Made by a program: the position numbers and the translations under genes
NCBI GenBank assembly: GCA_003024785.1
Contig: PUQB01000198.1
Span: 291,224 to 355,223, forward strand
DNA: 64,000 nt
Origin: Selaginella tamariscina
Taxonomy: Eukaryota; Streptophyta; Lycopodiopsida; Selaginellales; Selaginellaceae
Direction of reading: 5' to 3'
Part shown: in pieces, positions 15,120-48,761 of the stretch
How the letters are laid out: each line of letters opens with the position of its first letter
Numbering within the stretch: the first letter of the stretch is position 1
The notes under the pieces: model-generated
The model's database searches: none
Told to the model about the DNA's origin: nothing
The model's input: the letters and a program-made list of their open reading frames with translations, nothing else

Positions 15120-15525
15120 GACAATACATATATGTAAAAGCACCATTGAATTATAGTGTTTAATGAAAACCAGTTAACGTACACGCAGACCACATGGTAT
15201 TTAACGTGTAACCGTATTGACGCGTATTATATTCATTACTGTACATGTACGCACGTACAATACGCCAGATGTACTTGTACACACCACCGCACACGCGATA
15301 CTATAATTATGCACATGTTGTATACATCAGCCTATGCTTAGATACTCAACTTGCAACTTATAATGTATAAGAGGCACTTAATTATTTAAATTATACCGAA
15401 GGTAAACGCTTCTAGAAGCCAGATCTGACGTGCCTGCTCGTGGCAAAACCTACACCACTGAATCCACGTCACGACTTTATATTGCTTCCGTATAAAAATC
15501 ACGGAACAGAGTAATGCACACACAC

Positions 15526-16395
15526 ATGGACTCTCTTCCAGAAGATGTGATAATATACAGCATTCTTCCAAAGATCTTGGACGCGAGAGCTTTGGCACAA
15601 TGTGCACTTGTTTCTAAGGACTTGTACAGATTCACATCCAGAGTACAGTCGCTCCATTTCGACTTCCCAGCGTGGTGCAATTCAATTCGCCAGCCAGAGG
15701 CAGAGCAGATAGTATCGGCCGTGATCTCGCGGTCTCCTCATCTCGGCTCGCTGGCAATCAGATACTCTCCTCAGTGTCCTTCTCTGGTTTGTCTCTCGGA
15801 GAGCACCCTTGAGAGCTGGATACGCTACCTGAGCTCCACAATTCGAGAGCTCAAGCTGAGTAACAAAGGATGTGCATTCTCCGACCTTGTAACCTGTCTC
15901 TCCAGATGTAGCAAGCTTGAGTCGCTCTCGCTTGAGTTCGGCTACTTCGACGGTATACCGCAGGAGGCGTCGCTCCGGTTCCTCCGTAAGTGCTTCTTCA
16001 GCAACATCATTTTCCACAGGGACGATATCGAGAGTTTCTGTTTGTGTTGCCCGGTGCTGGAGAAGCTCACTCTCGAGGACTGCTACTCCACGCAGAACCC
16101 GGTTATCACACTCAATAGCAACTCTGTGGTGGAGCTTGAGATTACTGACTCGAGGTTCAACCGGATGATGATCCGCATGAGCAATCTGCGGAGGCTCTCT
16201 GTGTCTGCTTCCCTTGCCAAGAGCGTGTGCCTTGAGGAGCATTCCCTTAGCGAGGTGAGAATCATTGGCAACGGTGGGAGAGCAGTCACGGTCGCAGTTC
16301 CTCGTGGTAATTTCGATCTCTCCAAGCTCGACTACCACAGTCGGTCTGGGAACGCGACGACGATCTCGCCACGTTTTGTGCCGAGGAACATGTGA
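15526..16395 (+). CDS. F-box protein with LRR/FBD-like C-terminal region
   Basis: Single exon, 289 aa from the ATG at 15526; an in-frame ATG at 15514 would add four residues. TATAAAAATC at 15491 lies so close that transcription would start near or after 15514, so 15526 (MDSLPEDV) is the better start and the leader would be very short. The first 45 residues form an F-box (DSLPEDVIIYSILPKIL...CALVSKDLYRF). Leucine-rich segments follow: IRELKLSNKGC, KLESLSLEFGYF, VLEKLTLEDC and LRRLSVSAS. This is the layout of plant F-box/LRR proteins that recruit substrates to SCF ubiquitin ligases; the target is unknown. The frame is intact, and base composition is more GC-rich than the flanks. Confidence 0.85.
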   Translation: MDSLPEDVIIYSILPKILDARALAQCALVSKDLYRFTSRVQSLHFDFPAWCNSIRQPEAEQIVSAVISRSPHLGSLAIRYSPQCPSLVCLSESTLESWIRYLSSTIRELKLSNKGCAFSDLVTCLSRCSKLESLSLEFGYFDGIPQEASLRFLRKCFFSNIIFHRDDIESFCLCCPVLEKLTLEDCYSTQNPVITLNSNSVVELEITDSRFNRMMIRMSNLRRLSVSASLAKSVCLEEHSLSEVRIIGNGGRAVTVAVPRGNFDLSKLDYHSRSGNATTISPRFVPRNM

Positions 16396-21129: not shown

Positions 21130-23959
21130 CTTACAGACGAGAAGGACTGGGATGAGGAGGTGCCAATGATTACGGCTCGAATTGGTAAAAACAATATTCA
21201 GAATATACCTATTGATGGAGGTTCAGGAGTCAACATAATTGAAGAACAGATTTGCAAACAATTGGGACTTGGGCCTATTGAAAATGCGCCTTTTTGGTGA
21301 TGGCTGATCAGAGGAAAGTAAGACCCATTGGTATAATCAGATCTGTGTGTATGGAAATTGCAGGAATCAAGTTTAAGGTATCTTTAGTCGTATTAGTATC
21401 GAGCAGACTAGTAAACCATAACCCATGGTTAAGGGATGCAAAAGTACGACATAATTGGGAGCATGACGAAATGGTACTCTATAAGAGTGGACGAGAAGCG
21501 GTTGTTCGAACGCAGCAGAAGAAACCAATAGGACGACCGACCCGACCATTGCAAATGGAGGATTTTGACTGGCATTACGGCTTGAACAGGGAAGAAGAAA
21601 AACTCCTATTCGAAAGTAATCCAGACCTCATAGAGATAGCACAAGCGGATTTATACCAGATGACGCCGGAAGAAGAAAACATGGAGAAGACATAACTAGT
21701 GATCAACAACACCAACATATGAATACTCTTGGACTAACGGATAAGTTTAAACAACCTGTGCAGCAACAGTTACAATTCGAGACGAGAATGAACAAAGGAT
21801 ACGTACTCAACAAAAACTGGAAATTACTACGAATGAGAAGACTGAAGAAGTTGAAATCAAAACAAGTGAATATGGACCACGAAAAGTACGAATAGCAGTT
21901 GATCTCGAGCCGGAATACCGAAGACAATTGATAGCAGTACTACGTCAAAATGCAGATGTTTTTGCATGGAGCTACGAGGATCTTAAGGGAGTTCCACCTA
22001 CGATTTGTACTCATAAGATAGAACTATTACCACATGCAGTTCCGAGGAAACAGCAAGCATACGAATGAATCCAACATTTTTAGCGAAAGTGAGAAGAAGT
22101 GGACAAGTTATTACAGGCTGGATTCATATATCCAATTGAAAACCCGCAATGGTTATCACCAATAGTCGTAGTCCCAAAGAAGAATGGCAAATTACGTATC
22201 TGCGTCAATTATAAGAAGTTGAATGATGTAACGAAGCGGATACGTACCCAATACCATTCACCGAAGAATTGTTGGATACAGTAGCAGGACATGAAATGTA
22301 TTCTTTTCTGGACGGATTTTCAGGATACAACCAAGTTCAAGTAGATCCTGAGGATCAACCGAAAACGGCATTCATCAGTCCTTGGGGTACATATGCGTAT
22401 CGCGTTATGCCTTTTGGGCTATGTAATGCACCATTTACTTTTCAACGTTGGTTAGCGAAACATTCCGGGATTATTTGACCACATTTATGAAAGTTTTCTT
22501 GGATGATTTCAGTATTTATGGAGCACAAGATATGCACCTGGACTGTTTAACGAAGTGTTTCGGGAAATGCCGATTGAACAATATAGCTCTTAATCCGGAG
22601 AAGTGCGTGTTTTCCGTGAGATCAGGGATTTTGCTTGGGCACATTATATGCAAGGACGGAATAATGGTGGATCAAGATAAAATCAAAGTTACAAACAATG
22701 CAACCACCTAAAGACGTAAGTGGAGTACGACGGCTTTTAGGGAAGATGGGATATCATCGAAGGTTTATCAAAAATTATGCAGCAATAGCGAAGCCATTAA
22801 CTGCTTTGAGGAAAACGCAACCATTCAAATGGGATGCGGAATGCGAACAGAGTTTCAATACACTAAAGCAGGCATTAATGAAGGCTCCTATTTTAGCGAG
22901 TCCAAATTGGCAACAGGAGTTTCATGTACAAGTGGACGCATCGTCATACGCTATCGATGCATATTAACGCAAACCCAGGAGGATGGGAAAGATCGACCAT
23001 TATATTACGCAAGTCGACGGTTAGCACCTGCAGAAGAAAATTACACGACTACGGAAAAGGAAGCTCTCGGAATGGTTTATGCAGCAAAGAAATTTCGACA
23101 TTATTTGCTTGCAAACAAAGTCAAGTTCATTGTTGACCATCAAGCTTTGACACATTTGTAAGCAAGACTAAGCTAGAAGGAAGATTAGTACGCTGGTTTT
23201 TATTATTACAGGAGTTCGATTTTCAAATCATTCACAAACCAGGCAAATTACACCAACAAGCAGATTTCCTAAGTCGTATTACGAATGAAGAAGAAGGTGT
23301 TGGCGTGAATGATGAATACCAGATGCTAACTTATTCCAGGTACAACAGGAACAACCACCAAAGCATGGAAATTACGAAGGATATCTTCAAGATATTGAAT
23401 ATTTTTTAACTACTGGAACAGCACCGGTCAAGTACGCAACAACGCAGCAGCGCAAACAACTCGTATTACGATGTAAGCCATACTGCATGGTGTCAGGTAT
23501 ACTATATAAGAAAGGCAAAGATGAAGTGTTAAGGAGGTGTGTACCAATGGAGGAAGTGCAGACCGTATTACGGAAGCTCATTCAGGAGAACATGGTGGAC
23601 ATTTTGCAGGAACATTAACAGCACGAAAATATTACAGTCTGGATTATGGTGGCCCACATTATTCAAGGACGCTATCGACTATTGTCAAAAGTGTTTGAAG
23701 TGCAATGAACACCAACCAGCTCCACATCATCAAGTACAACCATTACATCCAACGAACCATTAGCTCCATTTATGAAATGGGGAATGGATTTTATGGGACC
23801 AATCATCCTAAAAGTAGCAAGCGGAATCAATATATATTGGTACTCACGGATTATGTTACTAAATGGGCAGAGGCTATCGCATTACGAGATTGTCGCGCAA
23901 TACGGGTAGCTAAGTTTATCTACGAGAATATCATAGTACAATTTGGCACTCCAATGGAA
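21130..23959 (+). pseudogene. Element A protease - RT - RNase H - integrase (5' part)
   Basis: The protease motif IPIDGGSGVNIIEEQ has D-G-G where active enzymes have D-T/S-G. RT shows WLSPIVVVPKKNGKLRICVN, FLDGFSGYNQVQVDPEDQ, VMPFGLCNAPFTFQR and FLDDFSIYG. RNase H has a VDASS start and RPLYYASRRLAPAEENY followed by TEKEAL. Integrase has an H..H/C..C zinc region near 23570-23710 and YILVLTDYVTKWAEAIALRD. Several frameshifts break the frame. The reading stops where B1 inserted, just before the second catalytic Asp (SDQG). Confidence 0.82.
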
Positions 23960-23964
23960 CTTAT

Positions 23965-24522
23965 TGTCACAACCGATGCAGGATACAGGTTTCCGGATAC
24001 AGGATGCAGGATTTTGGATACAGGATACGGGTTACAGGATATGCCTGCAGGATATTCCTACAGGATATACCTATAGGATATTCCTATAGGATATGCCTAG
24101 AGGATATATGCTACAGGATATGCCTAGAGGATAAGGGACACTATTCTTAGCTCATGACTAGATTAGACTCATGACTAGATTAGCTTGGAGTTGTGAGCAT
24201 AAAAGCTCCGACCTAATTGTTGTACAATCAGTTACTATCAACACCAGTCATTCTACGATTATTCTTGTTCCTTGTTCTTGTCTTGTTCTTGTCTTGCCTC
24301 CTTGCCTCCTGCTCTTATCTTGTTCCTGTCCCTCCTGGATCCTATCCGGTTCCTGTCTTGCTCCCGGATCCTATTCTGATCCTGTCCTGCTCCTGGATCC
24401 GTCCTGTTTCTGTTCCTGTTCCTGTTCCTAGTTCCTGTCCTACTCTCGGTCCTGCTCCTGAGTCAAGCCTTCCTGTTCTCGGAATCCTACTCGCTTCCTG
24501 GTTCCTGGATCGTGGCTTGACA
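23965..24522 (+). repeat. B1 5' LTR
   Basis: U3 holds an array of GGATATNCC-type repeats. A TATA-like CATAAAAG lies at 24198-24205. The predicted RNA start region ATCAGTTACTATCAA is at 24227-24241. A TCCTG-rich R/U5 follows. The LTR ends TTGACA. Confidence 0.9.
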
Positions 24523-24524
24523 GT

Positions 24525-24537
24525 TTGATAGTAACTG
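24525..24537 (+). promoter_or_regulatory. B1 self-complementary primer-binding site
   Basis: TTGATAGTAACTG starts 2 nt after the 5' LTR. It is the exact complement of CAGTTACTATCAA at 24229-24241 in the same LTR. No TGG-type tRNA site is present here. Confidence 0.7.
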
Positions 24538-24628
24538 CTTTCATAGCTCTTCGTTTCCCAGCTACCTTTTTTTTTTTTTCCTTGATTCTTTTTCCTTCGT
24601 TTTTCTCCTTTCTTTCTTTCATACGATC

Positions 24629-27600
24629 ATGGCTGATTTTGAGCACTTTCAACGCGAGCACCAAATGTTGCTTCATGAGCTGGCCACTTTGCGCCAAGTG
24701 GTCACGATCTTACAAGGCTCCACCATGCGGCACATGCAGCTGCTGATGCATCCCCAAGGCTGCTGCGCAGGCTCTCTCTCAGGCATCGGTGGTTCCTTCT
24801 TCATCAAACTTTTCTCCGGAGCCGAAGATCAGCATGCCAGAGAAGTTCAGTGGCAACCGTGCCGATTTCCAAGATTTCCTGAATCAGATCGGCTCTTGAT
24901 CCGCATGCAACCACGCCGCTACTCGACGAATGCACAAAGGTTGGCCTTTTGGCATCCTTACTAAGTGGATCTCCACGAGCTTGGGTTGCTCCCTTGCTGG
25001 AGCGTGACGACCCATTGATGGAAGACTTTGAAGGTTTCGTGGCTGCCTTTGAAGCCTGCTTTGGAGATCCTGATAAGTACCGTTCTGCATGCACAAAGTT
25101 ACGGAGGCTCACACAAGGATCCAGACCAGCTTCTGTTTATGCATCCGAATTCCAGCAATTGTGCACGAACATTCCATGGGACGAGACTGCATTGATCGAA
25201 CTTTCTGTTTTGGGCTGAGGGACGACGTGAAAGGACCTTCTCCTTACGTTACCGGATGCCCAAACGTTAGCAGAGATCATGCAACAGGCCGTTCGCTGCG
25301 ACAACCGTTTGTTCGAGCGCCGTCAGGAAAAATTCCGTCAGCAGTTCCTGCTAGCCAACCCTGTAGCCGTAGCACATGTTCCTGCGACACCTTCTGGAGC
25401 AGTTCCTATGGAGGTTAACAATTCCAAGCGTGGCCCACTTTCAACTGCTGAGAAGCAACATCGACGGGGTGAGAACTATGCTTGTATTGTGGTGCAGCAG
25501 GACACAAGGTGGGCGGAATGTCCTAATAAAGCCAGGAAGTTCAAGGCGCGTGAAGCGAAGCTGAAGTTCAGTCGAAAAACTTCAATGTCACTTCGTCTAG
25601 GAGCCGCGAAGTTGGATGTAGGTGCAGGCTCCATTGGTGCTACTCATACCATTCCATCACTCAGTTTCCTGTACACATTCGCCTCAATAATCGAGAGCTC
25701 AAGGAGTTTGCCATGTTAGACACTGGTGCAAATGCATGTTTCATGGATGACACCTTTGCAGCTCAGCATGGCATTCCGGTGTGAAGTTGAAGCATGCAAT
25801 TCCTGTAGAGGTGGCCGATGGTCGTTTGATTGCTTCTGGCGCAGTTACCCACGCTCACACCTCTCTCTTGCAATCATGGTGCATTCAACTGTTCGATTTC
25901 TTCAACCTGATCAAGACTCGGTCGACTCCCATCATTTTTGGCATGCCATGGTTCGTTGTTGCAATCTACAGATCGACTGGAGGTCTAGGACGCTCACGTT
26001 TTCCTCTCCAGCAGCCAGGATCAACCCTGTACCTTCCTGCGTGTAGGATACATCCTTGGTGTCTGAGGCAGTACAAGCTACAGGATTGACCGTGCCTGTT
26101 CCTGTACCAGTGTTGAAGACTCCTGCTCGACAGGATTCACCTCATGTCAGTTCCTCAGCACATCCGCAGGCTTTCTCCACTCCTGTAAGTTTGCGGTGTC
26201 CTGTACAGGGTTCTTCCAATCCTGTATCAGTGTCGAAGGTTCCTCCTCAACAGGATCCACCTCCTGTTGGTCCATCAGCAGATTCACAGGCTCTTCTCAC
26301 TCCTGTGCATCCACAGACTTCTGTACAGGATTCTTCCAATCCTGTACACTTGTCAATATCCACATCTATTTTTTCCAATTCTGCTTCTTTTCATTACTCT
26401 GTTTCTATTCCACCCCCCAAGATCCTTCCTCTTTTTCAATCACAGCTCCTTCCTGCTCCTCTCCAAGTTCTTACCACTACATGCATGAACTTACCACTGA
26501 TCCTGCTCCTTTCCACCTTTTTGCCTTTCAAGTCCCCTTCTCCTCCTTCTTCTCTACCATCCAAGTACCACGACTTTAAGGACGTTTTTGACAAGTACAA
26601 GGCTACAGTTCTTCCTGTTCACAGGTTCTACGACTGTTCTATTGATCTTGCAGAAGGAAAGACCCCACCGTTCGGACCGATTTACGCATTGTCACCCACA
26701 GAGTTGGAGGTTCTTCACCAGTACATCGAGGACAACTTGGCATCCGGCTTCATTCGTCACTCAAAGTCCCCTGCAGGAGCGCCAATCTTCTTTGTCAAGA
26801 AGAAGGATGGGAGCTTACGTTTGGTTGTGGACTACAGGGGTTTGAATCAAGCTACCATTCGGAATCGATACCCGTTGCCATTGATCCCGGAACTTCTCGA
26901 TCGGCTGCGAGGAGCAAAGGTGTTCACGAAGATCGACTTACGAGGGGCCTACAACCTTGTACGGATTCGTCCCGGCGATGAGTGGAAGACTGCCTTTCGT
27001 ACAAGGTATGGACACTTCGAGTACATGGTGATGCCTTTCGGCCTTACCAATGCCCCAGCCGTGTTCCAACATATGGTGAACGACATCTTTCGTGACTTCT
27101 TGGACCAGTTTGTGGTGATCTACCTTGACGACATTTTGATTTTCTCCAAGGACTAGGCGGCACATGACAAGCATGTACGGTTGGTTCTACAGCGGCTTCG
27201 TGAGCATGGCTTGTATGCGAAGTTGGAGAAGTGTTTTTTCGATAGGATTCTGTGGAGTTCTTGGGCTACATCATCTCTCCTGCTGGCGTTTCCATGGACA
27301 TGCACAAGGTGAAGACCATCGTGGAGTGGGAGAGGCCTAAGTCTGTACGAGATGTACAATGTTTCCTTGGCTTTGCAAACTTCTACAGGCGTTCATACAG
27401 GACTTCTCCAAGCGTGTACTTCCACTCACGGAACTCACCAAGCGCACAGAGGTTTTCTCTTGGTCCGACAAGGCGGAACATGCATTCACAACACTCAAGG
27501 ACACCTTCACGACAGCTCCGATTTAGCACATCCTGATCCTTCTCGTCCTTTCTTCGTTGAAGCAGATGCCTCGGATTTTTGTAGTAGGATCCGTCCTATC

Positions 27601-29501
27601 GCAAGTTGGAGAGGACAAGTTGCTTCATTCCTGTCGACGGAGATCAATTACGAGATTCATGACAAGGAACTCAAGGCCATTGTGGATTCGTTTGAGGAGT
27701 GGCGGCATTTCCTGGAAGGTGCTGCACATCCTGTACAAGTTCTTACGGATCACAAGAACCTGGAGTACTTTCGAACGGCTCGAGTTCTCAGTCGGCGACA
27801 GGCTAGGTGGGCGGAGTTCCTATCACGTTTTGACTTCGTCATCGTCTACAGGCCCGGTTTTTCGGAATGGCAAGGCGGACGCATTGTCTAGGCGCTCCTA
27901 CCTTGCACCAAGCCCGGGCGATCCTGCATTTGACTGTCAAAGGCAAGTGTTGTTGGGTCCTGATCGATTCCGGCTTGCGGCACTGCAGGTCCATCAGGCT
28001 CTAGCAAATTCAACTCTCCTACAAGACGTCCGTTCGCAGTTGGCTACAGACGACTTGGCAAAGAATGTGTTCTCACACATTCATCCTGACGTTGCAAGTT
28101 CCTCTTCCTCCAGTTCCCATCCAGACTACAACCTGTTCACCATACAGGATGGACTCCTGTACCGGGAAGGTCTCCTGTACGTTCCTGTTGGTGTTTGCAG
28201 GACTCGTGTGGTACAGGATTGTCATGATACTCCGGCTACAGGACATTTTGGTGTGGCCAAGACAGTTGAGTTGGTGACTCGCAACTATTGGTGGCCTGGG
28301 TTGCGAGGTTTTGTGGAGAGGTTTGTACGGAGTTGTGAACCTGCAACAGGTCGAAGATGCCTCGTCATGCACCTTCTGGTCTTCTTCGTCCTCTTCCTGT
28401 TCCTTCTACTCCTTGGAGATCCATTTTTATGGATTTCCTCACAGATCTTCCTCCTTCTCGTGGATTCGATGCAGTTCTTGTGGTGGTTGACCGTTTCACC
28501 AAGCAGGCTCATTTCGTACCCTGCAACAAGACAGCTACAGGTCAGACAACTACCGAGTTGGTGATCCGTGAAGTGTTCCGACATCATGGTCTTCCTGAGA
28601 GCATTGTTTCCGATCGAGGTCCACAATTCATGTCCAAGTTTTGGCGAGAGCTTCTTCGGAGTCTACAGGTTAAAGCGGATCTTTCTTCAGGATATCACCG
28701 CAAACTGATGGACAGTCAGAACGCACAATCCAGACCTTGGAGCAATATCTTTGTTGCTTCATCAATTACCAACAGGATAATTGGTTGGACCTTCTTCCTA
28801 TGGCGGAGTTTGCCTACAACAACTCCATTCACGCATCTACAAGCCAGACACCTTTCTTTGCTCTTACAGGCCACCATCCACGTTTTGACTTTGCTTCTCC
28901 TGCTTCTCCTTCTTCCGCTCCTGCAGTACAGGATCGTCTCAGCATCTTCGTCAGGTACAGGATGATCTCCAGGTTCATCTTCAGCAGGCACAGGAACGGT
29001 ACAAGCATCATGCTGATGCTCACCGTCAGCCGGCACCTGCATACAAGATTGGTGATCTTGTGTGGCTTCTTCGTCGACACATTTGCACCAACATGCCTTC
29101 TTCTAAGTTGGATTTTCAACGATTGGGCCCTTACAGGATCGTGGCGGAGGTAAATCATGTAGCTTTCCGACTCGAGTTACCATCCATGGTGAAACTTCAT
29201 CCTGTGTTTCACACCTCCTTGTTGGAGCCGTATCATCCTTCTCTCTCTTCCTGGTCGTGCTTCTTCTCCTCCCCCTCCTGTGGTCATTGCTGGTGAACCT
29301 GAGTACGAAGTTGCAGCCATCCTTGATTCTCGTCTTCATCGCCGCCAACTTCAATACTTGGTGGATTGGAAAGGTTATTTGCCTACCGATCGCACTTGGG
29401 AACCTGCATCCAACTTACTCCATGCTTCTTCCAAAGTTGCTGCCTTCCATCGGCATTATCCTGCTAAACCAGGTCCTAAGACTCGTGGAACTCGTCCTTA
29501 G
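24629..29501 (+). pseudogene. B1 gag-pol, several frameshifts and a nonsense codon
   Basis: Gag starts at the ATG at 24629 (MADFEHFQREHQML) and runs to about 25610 through several frame breaks. Protease DTGANACFMDD lies near 25720. A Pro/Ser/Val-rich linker (26100-26560) leads to RT ([45 protein letters not shown]). TAG at 27154-27156 replaces a Gln codon that B2 keeps. RNase H, integrase and a chromodomain ([19 protein letters not shown] form in another copy) follow to 29501, again with frame breaks. Confidence 0.85.
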
Positions 29502-29512
29502 GGAGGAGGTGC

Positions 29513-30072
29513 TGTCACAACCCGATGCAGGATACAGGTTTCCGGATACATGATACAGGATGCAGGATTTTGGATACAGGATACGGGTTACAGGATATGC
29601 CTGTAGGATATTCCTACAGGATATACCTATAGGATATTCCTATAGGATATGCCTAGAGGATATGCTATAGGATATGCCTAGAGGATAAGGGACACTATTC
29701 TTAGCTCATGACTAGATTAGACTCATGACTAGATTAGCTTGGAGTTGTGAGCATAAAAGCTCCGACCTAATTGTTGTACAATCAGTTACTATCAACACCA
29801 GTCATTCTACGATATTCTTGTTCCTTGTTCTTGTCTCTTGTTCTTGTCTTGCCTCCTTGCCTCTTGCCTTATCTTGTTCCTGTCCTCCTGGATCCTATCC
29901 GGTTCCTGTCTTGCTCCCGGATCCTATTCTGATCTGTCCTGCTCCTGGATCCGCCTGTTCCTGTTCCTGTTCCTTTCCTAGTTCCTATCCTGCTCTCGGT
30001 CCTGCTCCTGAGTCAAGCCTTCCTGTTCTCGGAATCCTACTCGCTTCCTGGTTCCTAGATCGTGGCTTGACA
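29513..30072 (+). repeat. B1 3' LTR
   Basis: It begins TGTCACAACCCGATGC and ends GGCTTGACA. It differs from the 5' LTR only by scattered substitutions and short indels, mainly in the TCCTG-rich tract. Confidence 0.9.
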
Positions 30073-30077
30073 CTTAT

Positions 30078-30880
30078 CAGTGATCAAGGAACTCATTTCG
30101 TCAACAACGTCATTAAAGTACTTTGCAACGAATATTTGGTAAAACATTACACCTCTACTGCGTATTATCCACAAGGAAACGAACAGGCAGAGGCTACTAA
30201 CAAAATACTGAAGACCGTACTAACCAAGATAGTAAACACTAATCGTAAAAACTGGGATGAAAAACTTCCATCAGCATTATGGGCATACTGTACTACGTAT
30301 AAAGTGACAACAAAGTTTACTCCATTTCAACTTACATACGGATTGGAAGCTATTATGCCTATAGAGTATTCATACCATCATTGCGGATGCCACTCGAATA
30401 CGGCATTGGGGAAGCAGAGCAAATTAAGCAACGACTACTACAACTCGAAAACTTGATGAAAAACGGCAACAAACAGTTTTTAATATACAAGCTATACAAA
30501 TGCGTATTAAGGCATGGCATGATCAATTACGACGAGTACAACAACGACCCTATTCCGAGTCGGAGACATGGTTTGGCATTATCAAGGGAATCTTTGACCG
30601 ATTGGTCATAAATTCAAGTCCAAATGGCATGGACCATATATAATTACCGACATACAAAATAACAACACTGTCACATTGATAGATGCTACAACACGGGTTA
30701 TACTTACGACGAATACGAATCACATACGGAAATATACAACTAAAAGCCAGAGGAAGATCTCGACAATGACCTGGAATACGAACGGCATATACGACGGACA
30801 CAGAAATATCTGTATTAATAGTAACACGGAATACGATCAAAACCGTAACTCGGAACAAGACAAGGAAAAAATATGTGGCT
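30078..30880 (+). pseudogene. Element A integrase, 3' part
   Basis: The reading resumes after B1 with LISDQGTHFVNNV, YYPQGNEQAEATNKI (catalytic Glu) and LTYGLEAIMP. A C-terminal GPY-type motif (KWHGPYIITDI) lies near 30630. Frame breaks occur at about 30385 and 30580. Sequence to about 31370 is open in places but unrecognised. Confidence 0.8.
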
Positions 30881-33093: not shown

Positions 33094-33728
33094 TGTCACG
33101 ACCCGATACAGAATACAGGATTCCGGATACAGGACATGGGTTGCAGGACTTTCCTACAGGATTCCGGATACAGGATATGGGTTGCAGGACTTTCCTACAG
33201 GATATTCCTACCAGGATTCCGGACACAGGATTCGGTTGCAGGATATTCCTACAGGATATGCCACAGGATATGCCTAGAGGATAAGGGACATGTGGACTCA
33301 TCTTAGCCTCTGCATGCATGCAATCACTTTTGCATGCATGCAACCACTTTTAGCACTCATGCCTAGATTAGCTCTTGGAGTTGTGAGCATAAAAGCTCCG
33401 ACCTAATTGTTGTACAATCAGTTACTATCAACACCAGTCTTACTACGATCAATCTCGTCTTGTCTTGTTCTTGTCTTGTTTCCTGTCCTGTTCCTGTCTC
33501 GCTCCTGTTCCTGTCCTGCTCCGGATCCTGTCCTGTTCCTGTCTTTTCCTGGATCTTGTCCTGCGCTTTCCTGTCTTGCTCCCGGATCCTATCCTGATCC
33601 TGTCTTGCTCCTAGATCCGTCCTGTTCCTATTCCTAGTTCCTGTCCTGCTCTCGGTCCTGTTCCTGAGTCAAGCCTTCCTGTCCTTGGAATCCTGTTCTC
33701 TTCCTGGTTCCTGGATCGTGGCTTGACA
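33094..33728 (+). repeat. B2 5' LTR
   Basis: TGTCACGACCCGATAC...GGCTTGACA. The TATA-like CATAAAAG lies near 33388. AGTTACTATCAA at 33420-33431 is the exact complement of TTGATAGTAACT at 33731-33742, just after the LTR. U3 also contains a duplicated TGCATGCATGCAA(T/C)CACTTTT. Confidence 0.92.
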
Positions 33729-33730
33729 GT

Positions 33731-33742
33731 TTGATAGTAACT
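33731..33742 (+). promoter_or_regulatory. B2 self-complementary primer-binding site
   Basis: TTGATAGTAACT starts 2 nt after the 5' LTR and pairs perfectly with LTR bases 33420-33431. Confidence 0.7.
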
Positions 33743-33819
33743 CTTCATAGTTCTCCGTTTTCCAGCTACCTTTTTCTTGATTCTTTTCCTTCATTTTCCT
33801 CCTTTTTCTTTCCTAGATC

Positions 33820-34799
33820 ATGGCTGATTTTGAGCGCTTTCAACGCGAGCACCAAATGTTCTTCTTCATGAGCTGGCCACTTTGCGCCAAGTGGTCACCG
33901 ACCTGCAAGGTTCCACCACTGCGGCACATGCAGCTGCTGATGCATCCTCCAAGGCTGCTGCGCAGGCTCTCTCCCAGGCATCGGTGGTTCCCTCTTCATC
34001 AAACTTTTCTTCGGAGCCGAAGGTTAGCATGCCAGAGAAGTTCAGTGGCAATCGTGCCGATTTCCAAGGTTTCCTGAATCAGATCCGGCTCTTGATCCGT
34101 ATGCAACCACGGCGCTACTCGACTGATGCTCAAAAGGTGGGTCTTTTGGCATCCTTACTAAGTGGATCTCCACGGGCTTGGGTTGCCCCCTTGCTGGAGC
34201 GTGACGATCCATTGATGGAAGACTTTGAAGGTTTCGTGGCTGCCTTTGAAGCCTGTTTTGGAGATCCTGATAAGTACCGTTCTGCATGCACGAAGTTACG
34301 GAAGCTCACTCAAGGATCCCGACCAGCTTCCGTCTATGCATCCGAATTTCAGCAACTTTGCACGAACATTCCATGGGACGAGACTGCATTGATCGAACAC
34401 TTCCGTTTTGGGTTGAGGGACGACGTGAAGGACCTTCTCCTTACGTTACCGGATGCCCAAACATTAGCGGAGATCATGCAACAAGCTGTTCGTTGCGACA
34501 ACCGTTTGTTCGAGCGTCGTCAGGAAAGATCCCGTCAGCAGTTCCTGCAAACCAATCCTGCAGCTGTGGTACATGTTCCTGCACCACCTTCTGGAGTAGT
34601 TCCTATGGAGGTTGAGAAATCCAAGCGTGGCTCTCTTTCCGCTGCTGAGAAGCAACGTCGTCGCAGTGAGAACCTGTGCTTGTATTGTGGTGGAGCAGGA
34701 CACAAGGTGGCAGATTGTCCTATTAAAGCCAGGAACTTCAAGACGCGTGAAGTTGAAGCTGAAGTTCAGTCGGAAAACTCCAATGTCCACTTCGTCTAG
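33820..34799 (+). pseudogene. B2 gag (one frame break near the start)
   Basis: The ATG at 33820 gives MADFERFQREHQM, then a 2-nt excess near 33860 compared with B1. The frame is open from about 33882 to TAG at 34799. Domains: a short coiled segment, an Ala-rich stretch, the capsid-like retrotransposon gag domain (MPEKFSGNRADFQGFLNQIR ... GSRPASVYASEFQQL ... FRFGLRDDVKDLL), and one zinc knuckle CLYCGGAGHKVADC. Pol begins in the -1 frame over the stop. Confidence 0.88.
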
Positions 34800-36897
34800 G
34801 AGCCGCGAAGTTGGACGTAGGTGCAGGCTCCATTGGTGCTGCTCATACCATCCCATCACTTAAGTTTCCTGTACACATTCATCTTAATAATCGAGAGCTC
34901 ATGGAGTTTGCCTTGTTAGACACTGGTGCAAATGCATGCTTCATGGATGACGTTTGCAACTCAACATGGCATTTCGGTGGTGAAGTTGAAGCGTGCAGTT
35001 CCTGTAGAGGTGGCCGATGGGCGTCTAATTGCTTCTGGTGCAGTTACCCATGCTACCGAACCTCTCTCCTGCAGGTATGGCACATTCAACTGTTCAATTT
35101 CCTTCAACTTGATCAAGACTCGGTCGACTCCCATCATTTTGGGCATGCCATGGTTCGTTGTTGCAAATCCGCAGATCGACTGGAGGTCTAGGACGCTCAC
35201 GTTTTCCTCTCCAACAGCTAGGATCAATCCTGTACCTTCCTGTGTGCAGGATACATCCTTAGTATCTGAGGCAGTACAAGCTACAGGATTGACCGTGCCT
35301 GTTCCTGTACCAGTGTTGAAGACTCCTCCTCGACAGGATTCACCTCATATCAGTTCCTCAGCACATCAGGCTCTCTCCACTCCTGTAAGTTTGCGGTGTC
35401 CTGTACAGGGTTCTTCCAATCCTGTATCAGTGTCGAAGGTTCCTCCTCAACAGGATCCACCTCCTGTTGATTCGTCAGCACATTCGCAGGCTTCTTCCAC
35501 TCTTGCGCAACCACGGACTCCTGTACAGGATTCTTCCAATCCTGTACACTCATCAACACCCACACAGGTTTTTTCCAATCCTGCTTCTTTCTGTTACCCT
35601 GCTTCTGTTCCATCCCCCAAGATCCTTCCTCTTTTTCAGTCACAGCTCCCTCCTTCTCCTCTCCGAGTTCTTACCACTACCATGCATGAACTCGCCACTG
35701 ATCCTGCTCCCTTCCACCTTTTTGCCTTTCAAGTAACTCCTACGTCCTCTTCTACCTTTCCTGTATCCGACTCCCTGTTTTTTCTCCTTCTCCTTCTCCT
35801 TCTCCTCCTTCTTCCTACCATCCAAGTACCACGACTTTAAGGACGTTTTTGACAAGCACAAGGCTGCAGTTCTTCCTGTTCACAGGTCCTACGACTGTCC
35901 TATTGATCTTGCGGAAGGAAAGACTCCACCATTCGGACCGATTTATGCATTGTCACCCACAGAGTTGGAGGTTCTTCGTCAGTACATCGAGGACAACTTG
36001 GCATCCGGCTTCATTCGTCACTCAAAGTCCCCTGCAGGAGCTCCTATCTTCTTTGTCAAGAAGAAGGATGGGAGTTTACGTTTGGTTGTGGACTACAGGG
36101 GTTTGAATCAAGTCACCATTCGGAATCGGTACCCGTTGCCATTGATCCCGGAACTTCTCGATCGGCTGCGAGGAGCAAAGGTGTTCACGAAGATCGACTT
36201 ACGAGGAGCCTACAACCTTGTACGGATTCGTCCCGGCGATGAGTGGAAGACTGCCTTTCGTACAAGGTATGGACATTTTGAGTACACGGTAATGCCTTTC
36301 GGCCTTACCAATGCCCCAGCTGTGTTCCAACACATGGTGAACGACATTTTCCGTGACTTCTTGGACCAGTTTGTGGTGATCTACCTCGACGACATCTTGA
36401 TTTTCTCCAAGGACCAGGCGGCACATGACAAGCATGTACGACTAGTTTTAGAGCGGCTTCGCGAGCATGGCCTGTACGCGAAGTTGGAGAAGTGTTTTTT
36501 CGATAGGGATTCGGTGGAGTTCTTGGGCTACATCGTCTCTCCTGCTGGCGTTTCCATGGACATGCACAAGGTGAAGACCATCGTGGAGTGGGAGAGGCCC
36601 AAGTCGGTACGAGATGTACAATGTTTCCTTGGCTTTGCAAACTTCTACAGGCGGTTCATACAGGACTTCTCCAAGCGTGTACTTCCACTCACAGAACTCA
36701 CCAAGCGCACAGGACTTTTCTCTTGGTCCGACAAGGCGGAACACGCGTTCACAACACTCAAGGACGTTTTCACGACAGCTCCGATTTTAGCACATCCTGA
36801 CCCTTCTCATCCTTTCTTCATTGAAGCAGATGCCTCGGATTTAGCAGTAGGATCCGTCTATCGCAAGTTGGAGAGGACAAGTTGCTTCATCCTGTAG
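34800..36897 (+). pseudogene. B2 protease, proline-rich linker and reverse transcriptase
   Basis: Protease: LLDTGANACFMDD, then a 2-nt loss near 34955, then GAVTHATEPL and ILGMPWF. A linker of about 200 residues, rich in Pro, Ser and Val, repeats PVQ(D/G)SSNPV. Another frame break lies in a CTT/CTC run near 35790. RT shows [54 protein letters not shown] and [13 protein letters not shown] 1-nt loss near 36858 shifts the frame in RNase H. The motifs resemble fungal/vertebrate-type chromoviruses more than the common plant CRM or Tekay types; this is my judgement from memory. Confidence 0.85.
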
Positions 36898-38789
36898 CTT
36901 TTCACTCTCGTAAGTTCCTGTCGGCGGAGATCAACTACGAGATTCATGACAAGGAACTCAAGGCCATTGTGGATTCGTTTGAGGAGTGGCGGCATTTCCT
37001 GGAAGGTGCTGCACATCCTGTACAAGTTCTTACGGATCACAAGAACCTGGAGTACTTTCAAACGGCTCGGGTCCTCAGTCGGCGACAGGCTAGGTGGGCA
37101 GAGTTCCTATCACGTTTTGACTTCGTCATCGTCTACAGGCCCGGCTTTCGGAATGGCAAGGCGGACGCATTGTCTAGGCGCTCTTACCTTGCACCAAGCC
37201 CGGGCGATCCTGCATTTGACTGTCAAAGGCAAGTGTTGTTGGGTCCTGATCGTTTCCGGCTTGCGGCACTGCAGGTTCATCAGGCTCCAGCAAATTCAAC
37301 ACTCCTACAGGACGTCCGTTCGCAGTTGGCTACAGACGACTTGGCAAAGAATGTGTTCTCACACATTCATCCTGACGTTGCAAGTTCCTCTTCCTCCAGT
37401 TCCCGTCCAGACTACAACCTGTTCACCATACAGGATGGACTCCTGTACCGGGAAGGTCTCCTGTACGTTCCTGTTGGTATTTCCAGGACTCGTGTGGTAC
37501 AGGATTGTCATGATACCCCGGCTACAGGACATTTTGGTGTGGCCAAGACAGTGGAGTTGGTGACTCGCAACTATTGGTGGCCTGGGTTGCGAGGTTTTGT
37601 GGAGAGGTTTGTACGGAGTTGTGACACTTGTAGCAGGTCGAAGATGCCTCATCATGCACCCTCTGGTCTTCTTCGTCCTCTTCCTGTTCCGTCTGCTCCT
37701 TGGAGATCCATTTCTATGGATTTCCTCACAGATCTTCCTCCTTCTCGTGGATTTGATGCAGTTCTTGTGGTGGTTGACCGTTTCACCAAGCAGGCTCATT
37801 TCCTACCCTGCAACAAGACAGCTACAGGTCAGACAACTGCCGAGTTGGTGATCCGCGAGGTGTTCCGACATCATGGTCTTCCTGAGAGCATTGTTTCCGA
37901 TCGAGGTCCACAATTCATGTCCAAGTTTTGGCGAGAGCTTCTTCGGAGTCTACAGGTCAAAGCGGATCTTTCTTCAGGATATCACCCACAAACCGATGGG
38001 CAGTCCGAACGCACAATTCAGACCTTAGAACAGTATCTTCGTTGCTTCATCAGTTACCAGCAGGACAACTGGTTGGACCTCCTTCCAATGGCGGAGTTTG
38101 CCTACAACAACTCCATCCACGCATCTACAGGACAGACACCTTTCTTTGCTCTTACAGGCCACCATCCACGTTTTGACTTTGCTCCTCCCGCTTCTCCTTC
38201 TTCCGCTCCTGCAGTACAGGATCGTCTTCAGCATCTTCGGCAGGTACAGGATGATCTCCAGGTTCATCTTCAACAGGCACAGGAACGATACAAGCATCAT
38301 GCTGATGCTCACCGTCAGCCGGCACCTGCATACAAGATTGGTGATCTCGTGTGGCTTCTTCGTCGACACATTCGCACCAACAGGCCTTCTTCTAAGTTGG
38401 ATTTTCAACGATTGGGCCCTTATAGGATCGTGGCGGAGGTAAATCCTGTAGCTTTCCGACTCGAGTTACCATCCACGGTGAAACTTCATCCTGTGTTTCA
38501 CACCTCTTTGTTGGAGCCGTATCATCCTTCTTCTCTTCCCGGTCGTGTTTCTTCTCCTCCCCCTCCTGTGGTCATTGACACTGAACCTGAGTACGAAGTT
38601 GCAGCCATCCTTGACTCTCGTCTTCATCGTCACCAACTCCAATACTTGGTGGATTGGAAAGGGTACCTGCCTACTGATCGCACTTGGGAACCTGCATCCA
38701 ACTTACTCCATGCTTCTTCCAAGGTTGCTGCCTTCCATCGGCATTATCCTGCTAAACCAGGTCCCAAGACTCGTGGAACTCGTCTTTAG
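36898..38789 (+). CDS. B2 RNase H (C-term) - integrase - chromodomain, intact frame
   Basis: The frame is open for more than 630 codons, from position 36882 to the stop at 38789. RNase H end: [20 protein letters not shown] and TDHKNLEYF. The integrase zinc finger reads H..H, then CDTCSRSK. Catalytic residues counted from 36882 are D280, D340 and E376, an exact D-59-D-35-E spacing (MDFL, SDRG, QSER). The GPY motif lies in [14 protein letters not shown] chromodomain closes the protein ([11 protein letters not shown] ... [20 protein letters not shown]), which in chromoviruses guides integration to heterochromatin. It is not translated alone: it is the 3' part of a frame-damaged gag-pol. Confidence 0.9.
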
Positions 38790-38800
38790 GGAGGAGGTGC

Positions 38801-39451
38801 TGTCACGACCCGATACAGAATACAGGATTCCGGATACAGGACATGGGTTGCAGGACTTTCCTACAGGATTCCGGATACAGGATATGGGTTGCAGGACTTT
38901 CCTACAGGATATTCCTACCAGGATTCCGGACACAGGATTCGGTTGCAGGATATTCCTACAGGATATGCCACAGGATATGCCTAGAGGATAAGGGACATGT
39001 GGACTCATCTTAGCCTCTGCATGCATGCAATCACTTTTGCATGCATGCAACCACTTTTAGCATCATGCCTAGATTAGCTCTTGGAGTTGTGAGCATAAAA
39101 GCTCCGACCTAATTGTTGTACAATCAGTTACTATCAACACCAGTCTTACTACGATCAATCTCGTCTTGTCTTGTTCTTGTCTTGTTTCCTGTCCTGTTCC
39201 TGTCCGTCCTGTCTTTCCTGTCTGCTCCTGATCCTGTCCTGCTCCGGATCCTGTCCTGTTCCTGTCTTTTCCTGGATCTTGTCCTGCGCTTTCCTGTCTT
39301 GCTCCCGGATCCTATCCTGATCCTGTCTTGCTCCTAGATCCGTCCTGTTCCTATTTCTAGTTCCTGTCCTGCTCTCGGTCCTGTTCCTGAGTCAAGCCTT
39401 CATGTCCTTGGAATCCTGTTCTCTTCCTGTTTCCTGGATCGTGGCTTGACA
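38801..39451 (+). repeat. B2 3' LTR
   Basis: It follows the polypurine tract AGGGAGGAGG, begins TGTCACGACCCGATAC, ends GCTTGACA, and matches the 5' LTR almost base for base. Confidence 0.92.
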
Positions 39452-42894: not shown

Positions 42895-45800
42895 TGTCAC
42901 GACCCAATACAGGATGCAGGATACAGGATACGGGTTACAAGATATGCCTATAAGATATACCTACATGATATGCATGCAAGATATTCCTACAGGATATACT
43001 TACAAAATATTCCTATAGGATATGCCTATAGGATATACTACAGATATGCCTAGAGGATAAGGGTCACTATTTTTAGCTCATGACCAGATTAGCTTGGAGT
43101 TGTGAGTATAAAAGCTCCGACTTAATTGTTATACAATCAGTTACTATCAACACTAGTCTTTTACGATCAATCTTGTTTTGTCTTGCTCCTTGCCTCCTGC
43201 TCGTCTTGTTCATGGTTCCTAATTCCTGTCCTGCTTTCTGAGTCAAGCTTTCTTATTCTCGAAATCCTGCTCATTTCCTTGTTCCTGGATCGTGGCTTGA
43301 TAGTTTGATAGTAACTGCTTTCATAGCTTTCCGATTTTCAGCTACTTTTTTCCTTGATTCTTCTCCTTCGTTTTCCTGCTTTTTTCTTTTATAATCATGG
43401 CCAATTTTAAGCAATTTCAACGAGCACCAAATATTGCTTCATGAGCTGGCCACTTTGCGTCAAGTGGTCACAGATCTGCAAGGTTCCACCAACGCGGCGC
43501 ATGCAGCTGCTGATGCATCCTTCCAAGGCTGTTGTGCAGCTCTTCTAAGCATCCGTGGTTTCCTCTCCATCGAACACTTCTTCAAAGCCGAAGATTAGCA
43601 TACCGAAAAGTTCAATGACAATCGTGCTGATTTTCAAGGGTTCCTGAATCAGATCAGGCTTTTGATCCGCATGCAACCATGCTGCTACTCGACTGATGCA
43701 CAAAAGGTTGGCCTTTTGCATCCCTACTAGTTGGATTTCCACAGGCTTGGGTTGCCCCTTTGCTGGAGCGTGACGACCCATTGATGGAAGACTTTGAAGG
43801 TTTCGTGGCTGCTTTGAAGCTTGCTTTGGAGATCCCGATAAGTACCATTCCGCATGCACGAAGTTACGAAAGCTCACACAAGGATCTCGACCAGTTTCCG
43901 TCTATACATCCAAATTTAGCAACTTTGCACAAACATTCCATGGGACAAGACTGCATTGATTGAACACTTCCGTTTTGGGTTGAGGGACGATGTGAAGGAT
44001 CTTCTCCTTATGTTACCGGATGCCCAAACATTAGCGGAGATCATGCAACAAGCTGTTCGTTGCGACAACCGTTTTTCGAGCGTTGTCAGGAAAGATCCCG
44101 TCAGCAGTTCCTGCAAACCAATCCTGCAGCTGTGGTACATACTCCTGCGACACCTTCTGGAGTAGTTCCTATGGAGGTTGAAAAATACAAGCGTGGTTCA
44201 CTTTCCGCTACTGAGAAGCAATATCGCTGCAGTGAGAATCTATGTTTATATTGTGGTGAAGCAGGACACAAGGCGGTGGAATGTCCTATTAAAGCCAGAA
44301 GTTCAAGATGCGTGAAGTTGAAGCTGAAGTTCATTCAAAAAACTTCAATGTTCACTTTGTTTAGAGCCACAAAGTTGGACATAGGTGCAGGCTCCATTGG
44401 TGCTGCTCATACCATTCCATCACTCAAGTTTCTGTACACATTCATCTCAATAATCGGGAACTCAAGGAGTTTGCCCTGTTAACACTGGTGCAAATGCATG
44501 TTTCATGAATAACACTTTTGCAACTCAACATGGCATTCCGGTGGTGAAGTTAAAGCGTGCAGTTCTTGTAGAGGTGGCCGATGGTCGTATGATTACTTCT
44601 GGCGTAGTTACCCATGCTACCAAACCTCTCTCTTGCAGTCATGGTGCATTCAACTGTTCGATTTTCTTCAACTTGATCAAGACTCATCGACTCCCATTTA
44701 TGCCATGGTTCGTTGTTGCAAATCCTCAAATGACTGGAGGTCTAGGACACTCACGTTTTCCTCTCCAACAACTAGGATCAATCCTGTACCTTCCTGTGCA
44801 GGATACATCCTTAGTGTCTGAGGCAGTACAAGCTACAAGATTGACGTGCCTGTTCCTATATCAGTGTTGAAGACTCCTCCTCGACAGGATTCACCTCATG
44901 TCAGTTCCTCAGCACATCCGCAGGCTCTCTCTACTCCTGTAAGTTTGGATTCCTGTATAGGGTTCTTCCAATCCTGTATCAGTGTCGAAGGTTCCTCCTT
45001 AACAAGATCCACCTCCTATTGGTTCGTCAGCACACTCACAGGCTCTCCTCACTCCTGTGCATCCACGGACTTCTGTATAGGATTCTTCCAATCCTGTACA
45101 CTTGTCAACATCCAACATGTTTCTCCCAATCTGCCTCTTTTCATTACTCTTCTTTGTTCCACCCCCCAAGATCCTTCCTCTTTTTCAATCACAGCTCCCT
45201 CCTTCTCCTCTCCGAGTTCTTATCACTACTATGCATGAACTTGCCACTGATCCTGTTCCTTTTCATCTTTTTGCCTTTTAAGTAACTCCTATCCTTTTAC
45301 CTTTTTTTGTATCTGACCCCTTGTTTTTCTATCTCCTTCTCCTGTTCCTTCTCTTCTCCTCCTCCTTCTTCCCTGTCATCCAAGTATCACTCCTTTCAAG
45401 ACGTTTTTGACAAGCACAAGGCTGCAGTTCTTCCTGTTCACAGGTTTTACGACTGTCCTATCAATCTTGTGGAAGGAAAGACTTCACCATTCAGACCGAT
45501 TTATGCACTGTCACCTACAGAATTGGAGGTTCTTTGTCAATACATCGAGGAAATTTAGCATCTGGCTTCATTTGTTATTCAAAGTCCCCTACAGGAGCAC
45601 CTATTTTCTTTGTCAAGAAGAAAGATGGGAGTTTACGTTTGGTTGTGGACTACAGAGGTTTGAATCAAATCACCATTTAGAACCGGTACCCGTTGCCATT
45701 GATCCCAAAACTTCTCGATCGGCTGCAAGGAGCAAAGGTGTTCACGAAGATCGGCATACTTAAAAGAAGGTAAGCAATATGTGAGCAAGGTGGGGCTTAA

Positions 45801-48761
45801 GCTTTTAGATTTAGATGAGTCTCTGGATGTTCGAGTACACGGTGATGCCTTTCGGACTTATTAATGCCCCATCCGTGTTCCAAAACATTTTCTGGATCAG
45901 TTTTGTGGTAATCTACCTCGATGACATTTTGATTTTCTTCAAGGACTAGGCGGCTCATGACAAACATGTACGACTAGTCTTACAAAGGCTTCGCGGAGCA
46001 TGGCCTGTATGCGAAGTTGGAAAAGTGTTTCTTTGACAGGGATATTGTGGAGTTTTAGGCTACATCGTCTCTGCTGCTGGCATTTCCATCATGGACATGC
46101 ATAAGGTGAAGACTATCGTGAGAGAGGGAGAGGCCCAAGTTTGTATGAGACGTACAATGTTTCCTTGGCTTTGCAAACTTCTACAGGCGTTTCATACAGG
46201 ACTTCTCCAAGCATGTACTTCCACTCACGGAACTCACCAAGCGCATAGGAGTGTTCTCTTGGTCCGACAAGGCGGAACATGCATTAACAACACTCAAGGA
46301 CGCCTTATGATAGCTCCGATTTTAGCACATCCTGATCCTTCTGTCCCTTTTTCATTGAAGCAGATGCCTCAGATTTTGCAGTAGGATCTATTCTATCACA
46401 AGTTGGAGAAGACAAGTTGCTTCATCCTGTAGCTTTTCACTCTCGTAAGTTCCTTTCGGCAGAGATCAATTACGAGATTCATGACAAGGAACTCAAGGCC
46501 ATTGTGGATTCGTTGAGGAGTGGCGGCATTTCCTGGAAGGTGCTGCGCATCTGTACAAGTTCTTACGGATCACAAGAACCTGGAGTATTTTCAAACGGCT
46601 CGAGTTCTCAGTCGGCGACAGGCTAGGTGGGCAGAGTTCCTATCACATTTTGATTTGTCATCATTTACAGGCCTAATTTTCGAAATGGCAAGGCGGATGC
46701 ATTGTCTAGGCGCTCTTACCTTGCACCGACCCGGGCGATCCTGCATATGACTGTCAAAAGCAAGTGTTGTTGGGTCCTGATCGACTTTGGCTTGCAGCAC
46801 TACAAGTTCATCAGCTCCAGCAAATTCCACACTCCTACAGGACATCCGTTTGCAGTTGGCTACAGACGACTTGGCAAGGAATGTGTTTTCACACATTAGT
46901 CCTGACATCGCAAGTTCCTCTTCCTCAGTTCCCGTATAGACTATAAGTTGTTTGCCATACAAGACAGACTCCTGTACCGAGAAGGTCTCCTATACGTTCC
47001 TGTTGGTGTTTGCAGGACTCGTGTGGTACAGATTGTCATGATACCCCGGCTACAAGACATTTTGGTGTGGCCAAGACAGTTGAGTTGGTGACTGCAACTA
47101 TTGGTGGCCTGGGTTGCGAGGTTTTGTGGACAAGTTTGTACGGAGTTGTGACACTTGTAATAGGTCAAGATGCCTCGTCATGCATCCTCTGGTCTTCTTC
47201 GTCCTCTTCCTGTTCCTTCTGCTCCTTGGAGATCCATTTTATGGATTTCCTCACAGATCTTCCTCCTTCTCGTGGATTTGATGCAGTTCTTGTGGTAGTT
47301 GACCGTTTCACCAAATAGGCTCATTTCTTACCATGTCACAAGACTGCTACAGGCCAGACAACCGTTGAGTTGGTGATCTGCGAAGTATTCGACACCATGG
47401 TCTTCCTGAGAGCATTGTTTCTGATCGAGGCCCACAATTCATGTCCAAGTTTTGGCGAGAACTTCTTCGGAGTCTACAGGTTAAAGCGGACCTTTCTTCA
47501 GATACCATCCACAAACTGATGGGCAGTCAGAACGCACGATTCAGACCTTGGAGCAATATCTTTGTTACTTCATCAGTTACCAACAGGACAATTGGTTGGA
47601 CCTTCTTCCAATGGCGGAGTTGTTTATAACAACTCCGTTCACGCATCTACAGGCCAGACACCTTTCTTTCTCTTACAGGCTACCATCCACATTTTGACTT
47701 TGCTCCTCCTGCTTCTCCTTCTTCCGCTCCTGCAGTACAGGATCGTCTTCAGCATCTTCGTCAGGTACATGAGGATCTCTGGTTCATCTTCAGCAGGCAC
47801 AGGAATGGTACAAGCGTCATGCTGATGCTCATCGTCAACCGGCACCTGCATACAAGATTGGTGATCTTGTGTGGCTTCTTCGTCGGCATATTCGCACCAA
47901 CAAGCCTTCTTCTAAGTTGGATTTTCAACGATTGGGCCCTTACAGGATTGTGGCTAAGGTCAATCCTGTAGCTTTCCGACTCGAGTTACCATCTACGGTG
48001 AAACTTCATCCTGTGTTTCACACCTCTTTGTTGGAGCCGTATCATCCTTCTTCTCTTCTTGGTCGTGCTTCTTCCTCCCCCTCCTGTGGTCATTGACGGT
48101 GAACCTGAGTACGAAGTTGCAGCCATCCTTGATTCTCGTCTTCACCGCCAACTTCAATACTTGGTGGATTGGAAAGGTTATTTGCTTATCGATCGCACTT
48201 GGGAACCTGCATCCAACTTACTCCATGCTTCTTCCAAAGTTGCTGCTTTCCATCGGCGTTATCCTGTTAAACCAGGTCCCAAGACTCGTGAACTGTCCTT
48301 AGGGAGGAGGTGCTGTCACGACCCGATACAGATGCAGGATACAGGATACGGGTTACAAGATATGCCTATAGGATATACCTACAGGATATGCCTGCAGGAT
48401 ATTCCTACAGGATATACCTATAGGATATTCCTATAGGATATGCTTATAGGATATACTACAGGATATGCTTAGAGGATAAGGGTCACTATTTTTAACTCAT
48501 GACCAGATTAGCTTGGAGTTGTGAGTATAAAAGCTCCGACGTAATTGTTGTACAATAGTTATTATCAACACCAGTCTTTTTACGATCAATCTTGTCTTGT
48601 TTTGTTCTTGTCTTGTCTTGTTCCTTGCCTCCTACTCTTGTCTTGTTCCTGGTTCCTAATTCTTGTCCTGCTCCATGTCCTGCTCCTTGTCCTGCTTCTG
48701 AGTCAAGCTTTCTTGTTCTTGGAATCCTGCTCACTTCTTTGTTCCTGGATCATGGCTAGAC
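42895..48761 (+). mobile_element. Element B3: older, degenerate chromovirus copy
   Basis: 5' LTR about 42895-43302, 3' LTR 48314 to about 48761 with a decayed end. No target duplication is recognisable. The internal order matches B1 and B2, including the self-complementary site after the 5' LTR (43305-43317 against 43138-43150). Gag, protease, RT, RNase H, integrase and chromodomain are all recognisable but carry many frameshifts and stops. A foreign-looking stretch replaces part of RT near 45750-45830. Confidence 0.85.
43397..48300 (+). pseudogene. B3 gag-pol remnant
   Basis: Gag starts at the ATG at 43397 and has zinc knuckle CLYCGEAGHKAVEC near 44250. Protease remnant lies near 44480, RT 45400-45960, RNase H near 46340-46650, integrase 46980-48050 and chromodomain 48100-48270. 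TAG occurs at the same Gln codon after ILIF as in B1 (near 45947). It holds AAAAAAC just before the gag stop. Confidence 0.8.

Follow-up and report, generated by a model that had tools for sequence, protein, structure and literature searches.

A Tcn1-like chromovirus family in Selaginella tamariscina that appears to prime reverse transcription with the 5' end of its own RNA

The LTR retrotransposon that occupies positions 23965-30072 of the DNA analysed here (a 64-kb stretch of the Selaginella tamariscina genome, referred to in its entirety as the window) raises the question of how its reverse transcription is primed, and in particular whether, as was originally predicted, the first nucleotides of its own RNA might fold back onto a site just past the 5' LTR. 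The element (designated E1) is bounded by a 5-bp target duplication, CTTAT, at 23960-23964 and 30073-30077. The complementary 13-mers on which the prediction was built are present as described, with TTGATAGTAACTG at 24525-24537 forming the exact reverse complement of CAGTTACTATCAA at 24229-24241, and the dinucleotide GT accounts for the two-base gap that was said to separate the end of the 5' LTR (24522) from TTGATAGTAACTG. The features of E1 that bear on the question are the following:

23965-30072, forward strand: E1, an LTR chromovirus (5' LTR 23965-24522, 3' LTR 29513-30072)
24198-24205, forward strand: TATA-like box CATAAAAG, whose equivalent in the copy E3 is TATAAAAG
24230-24241, forward strand: putative self-primer and RNA 5' end AGTTACTATCAA, assigned from primer-binding site complementarity, box spacing, fold and matched variants
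24525-24536, forward strand: candidate primer-binding site (PBS) TTGATAGTAACT, which starts two bases (GT) past the LTR

As judged by eye, E1 sits inside another integrase-like coding sequence (23699-23964), which resumes past the 3' LTR (30073-30456).

Two further copies of the family, E2 and the older E3, lie downstream in the window:

33094-39451, forward strand: E2, the second copy (5' LTR 33094-33728, 3' LTR 38801-39451, 5-bp target duplication ACTTG)
33420-33431, forward strand: putative self-primer of E2
33731-33742, forward strand: candidate PBS of E2; base 13 (33743) is C and lies outside the predicted pairing
33882-34799, forward strand: gag ORF of E2, with capsid domains (Pfam Retrotrans_gag, DUF4939, Ty3_capsid)
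35950-36897, forward strand: reverse transcriptase ORF of E2 (Pfam RVT_1)
36882-38789, forward strand: RNase H, integrase and chromodomain ORF of E2 (Pfam RT_RNaseH, rve, SH3_Tf2-1, Chromo)
42895-48757, forward strand: E3, the older copy (5' LTR 42895-43302, 3' LTR from about 48314; 3' end approximate, decayed)
43139-43150, forward strand: putative self-primer of E3
43305-43316, forward strand: candidate PBS of E3

With 18 gap columns left out in each case, the paired LTRs are identical at 543 of 550 aligned bases in E1 and at 628 of 634 in E2, and because both elements also retain their target duplications, both look young. Across 13 bases, primer and PBS match at 12 positions in E2 and at all 13 in E3. 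Around and beyond E3, 16 inverted-repeat pairs at 40733-62269 (arms of 80-224 nt, 85-99% complementary) represent inverted copies of other repeats.

That the complementarity arose by chance within a CT-rich LTR, an explanation for which only the low complexity of the leader speaks, is extremely unlikely, and it is refuted both by shuffling and by the natural matched variants described below. When the LTRs were dinucleotide-shuffled, an equal or longer match at an offset of 0-5 appeared in 0 of 2000 trials for E1, 1 of 2000 for E2 and 0 of 2000 for E3, as well as in 0 of 2000 for each of four contigs from more distant families that are taken up further on. The 13-mer itself, with two mismatches or fewer, is found at 12 places in the 64-kb window, against a mean of 2.69 and a maximum of 6 in shuffles.

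A search for covariation between the two sides among other genomic copies had been proposed as a check on the pairing, and the host assembly (300.7 Mb in 1391 contigs) provided abundant material for it, with 4,950 occurrences of the 13-mer (8 for a reversed control) and 1,619 of the junction between LTR end and PBS (0 for its control). A sample chosen blind to the PBS was assembled by means of a gag-start pattern, from the first 61 of 100 places listed out of 2,332, minus one near a contig end. Exact 12-nt pairing between primer and PBS was found in 52 of these 60 copies: 49 have both standard 12-mers, and 3 combine the primer change T7A with the PBS change A6T. T7A occurs alone in a single copy (L076) and A6T alone in none; seven other one-sided changes affect the primer (2) or the PBS (5).

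Genome-wide, the variant PBS (A6T) is found at 64 junctions, and the variant primer (T7A) at 181 places. Three of the 64 junctions already belonged to the PBS-blind set and 40 more were examined, of which 34 have the matching primer base, either in an exact variant primer (32 copies) or accompanied by other changes (L183 and L190); the remainder have a standard primer (L172, L175 and L187) or an altered one (L180), and in two of the 40 (L168 and L173) the primer was not found. The proposed check thus came out in favour of the pairing, which covaries within the family (T7A with A6T, 34/40) and, as described below, between families. These subfamily counts are not independent, because the copies share descent, and the T7A/A6T subfamily probably represents one ancestral double change seen many times. 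Among older copies resembling E3 (39 of 40 listed, the window's own E3 being left out), both sides are standard in 17 and exact 12-nt pairing is retained in 19; two of those 19 pairs, L146 and L155, display matching changes, C-to-T and G-to-A, which may have arisen by separate deaminations.

The position of the putative primer relative to the TATA-like box agrees with the spacing of about 30 nt that was originally suggested: A24230 lies 32 nt past the start of the box in E1, and where both a box and an exact primer are present (79 of 99 copies), the corresponding distance is 32 nt in 67, 31 nt in 8 and 30 nt in 4. Base 13 of the PBS, counted only in copies with exact 12-mers on both sides (n=67), is G in 52, C in 14 and T in 1. 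The 13-nt pairing of the original prediction is therefore exact in E1 but informative over 12 nt, because base 13 varies (it is not G in E2 or in 15 of the 67 copies) and because A24230 falls 32 nt past the start of the box. A24230 is the probable first base of the RNA, with a primer of 12 nt; it is the TATA spacing that points to the partner of the PBS as the RNA 5' end.

A tRNA might nonetheless serve as the primer, pairing past the LTR through its 3' end or as an internal (half-) tRNA, while the self-complementarity is incidental; tRNA-Met is used by most plant chromoviruses, and half-tRNA primers are found in some plant Ty1/copia groups (PMC6317226). Against this, and in keeping with the earlier claim that no TGG-type site follows the LTR, all 78 genomic copies that combine a box and an exact primer with a recognisable LTR end lack TGG within the first 15 nt past the LTR, so that the TGG-type PBS of the tRNA-primed plant chromoviruses (CRM, Tekay, Reina and Galadriel) is found in none of them. 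Moreover, several families with different sequences each possess a site that matches their own predicted RNA start, and the window's one tRNA gene has no match to the site. That gene is a tRNA-Asp (GTC) at 1286-1357; searches of the 64-kb window found no other RNA gene. Priming by a tRNA is accordingly considered very improbable.

Computational folding of seven leaders, each begun at the predicted initial A, places the primer on the PBS in 7/7, with pairing probabilities of about 1.0 for the inner pairs and of about 0.5-0.9 for the outermost; taken over their full length, the leaders of E1, E2 and E3 show only a modest folding advantage over shuffles (z of -1.87, -1.49 and -1.48). RNA folds and duplex predictions also indicate a second, upstream helix, the strands of which in E1 are as follows:

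24246-24261, forward strand: 5' strand of the predicted second helix, AGTCATTCTACGATTA, which pairs with the LTR end
24507-24522, forward strand: 3' strand of the predicted second helix, GGATCGTGGCTTGACA, the 5' LTR end adjoining the PBS

Across the seven leaders, between 0 and 19 of 200 shuffles produced an equally good second helix, whereas a downstream flanking duplex, which would correspond to the third of the Tf1 'pretzel' structure discussed below, was indistinct from shuffles (13-61 of 200 as good). Among four leaders of the more distant families, the second helix displays two-sided changes at positions 5, 7, 8 and 9, the pair at position 9 of L004 being the one that is broken; the helix covaries less strongly than the primer does, because helix partners that are swapped between leaders still pair at 6-8 of 9 positions.

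These observations bear on a further alternative, in which the paired segments constitute a structural or regulatory leader hairpin (acting in packaging or translation) rather than a source of primer. Covariation alone demonstrates pairing and not priming, and the second helix covaries as well; yet the primer pair is placed exactly where a PBS is required, two bases past the LTR, its partner lies at the predicted RNA 5' end, an alternative PBS was not seen, and relatives in the same clade are called self-primed in the literature (PMC6317226, PMC10085805). A purely structural role is thus regarded as improbable, if somewhat less so than priming by tRNA.

Evidence from beyond the host genome was provided by contigs assigned to a MAG of an 'uncultured Trichormus', seven of which (L002-L008) encode relatives 53-60% identical across most of the query. 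This nominally cyanobacterial MAG contains many Tcn1-like retrotransposon contigs (L002-L008, L026, L028 and L055). Trichormus is presumably another name of Nostoc azollae. The latter inhabits the fern Azolla (PMC5901025), and the retrotransposon contigs are probably DNA of that fern host, binned by mistake. Their fern origin is called probable because the run number of the MAG does not appear in the passages of PMC5901025 at hand and because the synonymy of Trichormus is itself presumed.

A blind scan for inverted pairs at 22 loci found none at 14 (two of which had no sequence to scan) and some at 8; of the latter, L002, L004, L007 and L028 were used and L018 and L026 were left out, while the pairs in L013 and L015 were rejected as having no TATA or LTR context. 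In each of the four contigs used, the PBS begins two bases past TGACA and pairs exactly with the contig's own putative primer (over 12 nt in L002, and 11 nt in each of L004, L007 and L028), with three different primer sequences represented; TATAAAT lies 32-33 nt upstream of the primer, and either CACCAGTT or CACAAGTT follows it directly. When a Selaginella-like partner is exchanged for one from a MAG family, the pairing falls to 5-9 of 12, as compared to 10-11 when partners are exchanged among close variants. A count of 18 matches to GTGACAGNTTG in the MAG revealed an 11-nt upstream partner in 4 and none over 8 nt in 14; the contig numbers identify those four as L007, L003, L004 and L028, so that L003 represents one additional case. 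An exception, by eye, is L006, in which the primer in the 5' LTR and the PBS have only 7 matching bases.

In three of the MAG contigs (L004 at 52-94, L007 at 6-48 and L028 at 670-712), an inverted copy of the primer, of the form GTTCGCCTT...AAGGCGAAC (GTTCACCT...AGGTGAAC in L028), is situated downstream of the TATA box and upstream of the predicted RNA start and changes together with primer and PBS; no such copy between box and start was seen in the window elements. Elsewhere, 9 of 59 loci possess a repeat pair at both sides, and a 12-nt pair beside the repeat end was found in L041 only. That locus (101-145), a distant Ty3/gypsy element (32% identity) whose terminal repeats are 126 nt or longer, harbors the 12-nt self-complement ATTGATATTTTA one base past the repeat, and the partner of ATTGATATTTTA ends 20 nt before the repeat end. 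Among viral contigs, one protein query found no relatives, and an alignment search gave one weak locus.

Taken together, the covariation, the spacing between box and primer, the fold of the leader and the absence of a TGG-type site support the reading originally advanced, that the E1 family is a Tf1/Sushi-type (Tcn1-like) chromovirus priming itself with its own RNA 5' end, to which, as judged from sequence, a probability of roughly 0.9 is assigned. In the mechanism proposed, the RNA would start at A24230 and its first 12 nt (AGUUACUAUCAA) would fold back onto the PBS, assisted by the second helix, in which the LTR end pairs with the bases that directly follow the primer; RNase H would then cut after base 12, leaving a leader that begins at base 13 (CACCAGUC), and the freed 12-mer would prime minus-strand DNA. 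Subsequent copying of the primer into plus-strand DNA could allow a change at the RNA 5' end to enter the next PBS and would in this way account for the matched primer/PBS variants. A broader proposal, for which the odds seem about even, is that each round of replication rewrites the PBS from the RNA 5' end, letting primer and PBS drift together, free of the constraint imposed by a tRNA; the T7A/A6T subfamily and the differing primers of the probable fern families would be natural records of that drift, and the range of the clade would take in ferns, mosses and lycophytes.

As in the Tf1/Sushi group, the E2 integrase bears a C-terminal chromodomain (Pfam SH3_Tf2-1, Chromo), and a PBS complementary to the element's own predicted RNA start lies just past the LTR (in E1-E3, 52 of 60 sampled copies and four MAG contigs). 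As read by eye, the E2 chromodomain has a full aromatic cage (CHD_I; EYEV...DWKGY, with Y, W and Y), a trait that is not exclusive to the plant Tcn1 clade because Galadriel-like elements of Selaginella moellendorffii have one as well. The end of the E2 gag ORF, which has 129 scored genomic copies at 99-100%, is overlapped (34763-34799) by a -1 frame that stays open and has a DTGA protease motif downstream, and an X XXY YYZ slippery heptamer is absent from that overlap; outside fission yeast, members of the Tf1/Sushi group mostly produce Gag-Pol by -1 frameshift (PMC10085805).

Among the 120 protein matches listed of 5219, the majority come from metagenomes and are unnamed, and the five that bear an organism name are fungal (Absidia, Podosphaera and Trametes) or from frogs (Xenopus and Leptobrachium). 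In an integrase tree with a midpoint root, from the rows of which named references for Tf1, Tcn1 and tRNA-primed plant elements are absent, E2 groups with Trichormus MAG contigs (10 rows, 98/94), inside a 35-row group that holds all five named genera at 94/93, below the tool's starred level. Of the host genes in the window, an F-box ORF at 15496-16392 has two database matches, both from S. moellendorffii (53% identity across 76-77% of the query), and a database search with P0122 gave no homologue.

In its general kind, the system described here was already known, because Neumann et al. (2019) predicted self-priming for the majority of plant Tcn1-clade elements and, in the portion of that paper available, for no other plant chromovirus group (PMC6317226). 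The earlier suggestion that Tcn1-like relatives may share the mechanism is therefore correct and had already been published as a prediction, and the description of self-priming as unusual is appropriate among plant chromoviruses but not within the Tcn1 clade, where that same prediction makes it expected. The present analysis adds primer and PBS variants that match one another naturally within a plant family, an adjacent helix that covaries to some extent, and members that are probably from ferns; the literature on Tcn1 and ferns, and on S. tamariscina and LTR retrotransposons, gave in the partial texts available no account of the E1 family or of fern Tcn1 elements, which is weak evidence of absence. 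While earlier support for self-priming of plant Tcn1-like elements consisted of predictions from sequence matches (PMC6317226), the E1 family is very abundant and young, and its matched mutations constitute natural compensatory evidence, making it well suited to observing the mechanism in planta. The published plant range of the clade comprises moss and club-moss (PMC6317226), and the probable fern copies bear on the debate between vertical retention and transfer from fungi.

The plant Tcn1 clade resembles the E1 family in its aromatic-cage chromodomain, its Selaginella-like host and its predicted self-priming (PMC6317226). The study of SM-Tcn1 in S. moellendorffii, in contrast, detected no tRNA site and no self-priming, according to the part of it available (PMC2864245), whereas the E1 family has a clear 12-nt pair. 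Self-priming has been predicted also for plant elements of a different superfamily, the TAR-lineage Ty1/copia elements Houba and Osr-1 (PMC6317226), and proposed for Tj1 (PMC4600332). As here, it has been proposed for Tcn1 of Cryptococcus neoformans and for the vertebrate Sushi elements (PMC7175516, PMC10085805); the five named fungal and frog proteins are 46-51% identical to E2 over the aligned part, and their integrases group with that of E2 in the tree, from which the Cryptococcus Tcn1 is absent. The closest mechanistic comparison is with Tf1 of fission yeast, for which priming rests on experiments, whereas that of the E1 family is deduced from sequence. The Tf1 primer comprises 11 bases, released by a cut between bases 11 and 12 (PMC7175516), as compared to the 12 indicated here. 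In both, the first RNA bases pair (in E1, as predicted) with a PBS past the LTR and an extra duplex adjoins that site (PMC7175516, PMC10085805). The Tf1 'pretzel' RNA combines the primer:PBS pairing with two duplexes beside the PBS; the third duplex is not clearly supported in the E1 family, and the second helix resembles one of the flanking pair (PMC10085805).
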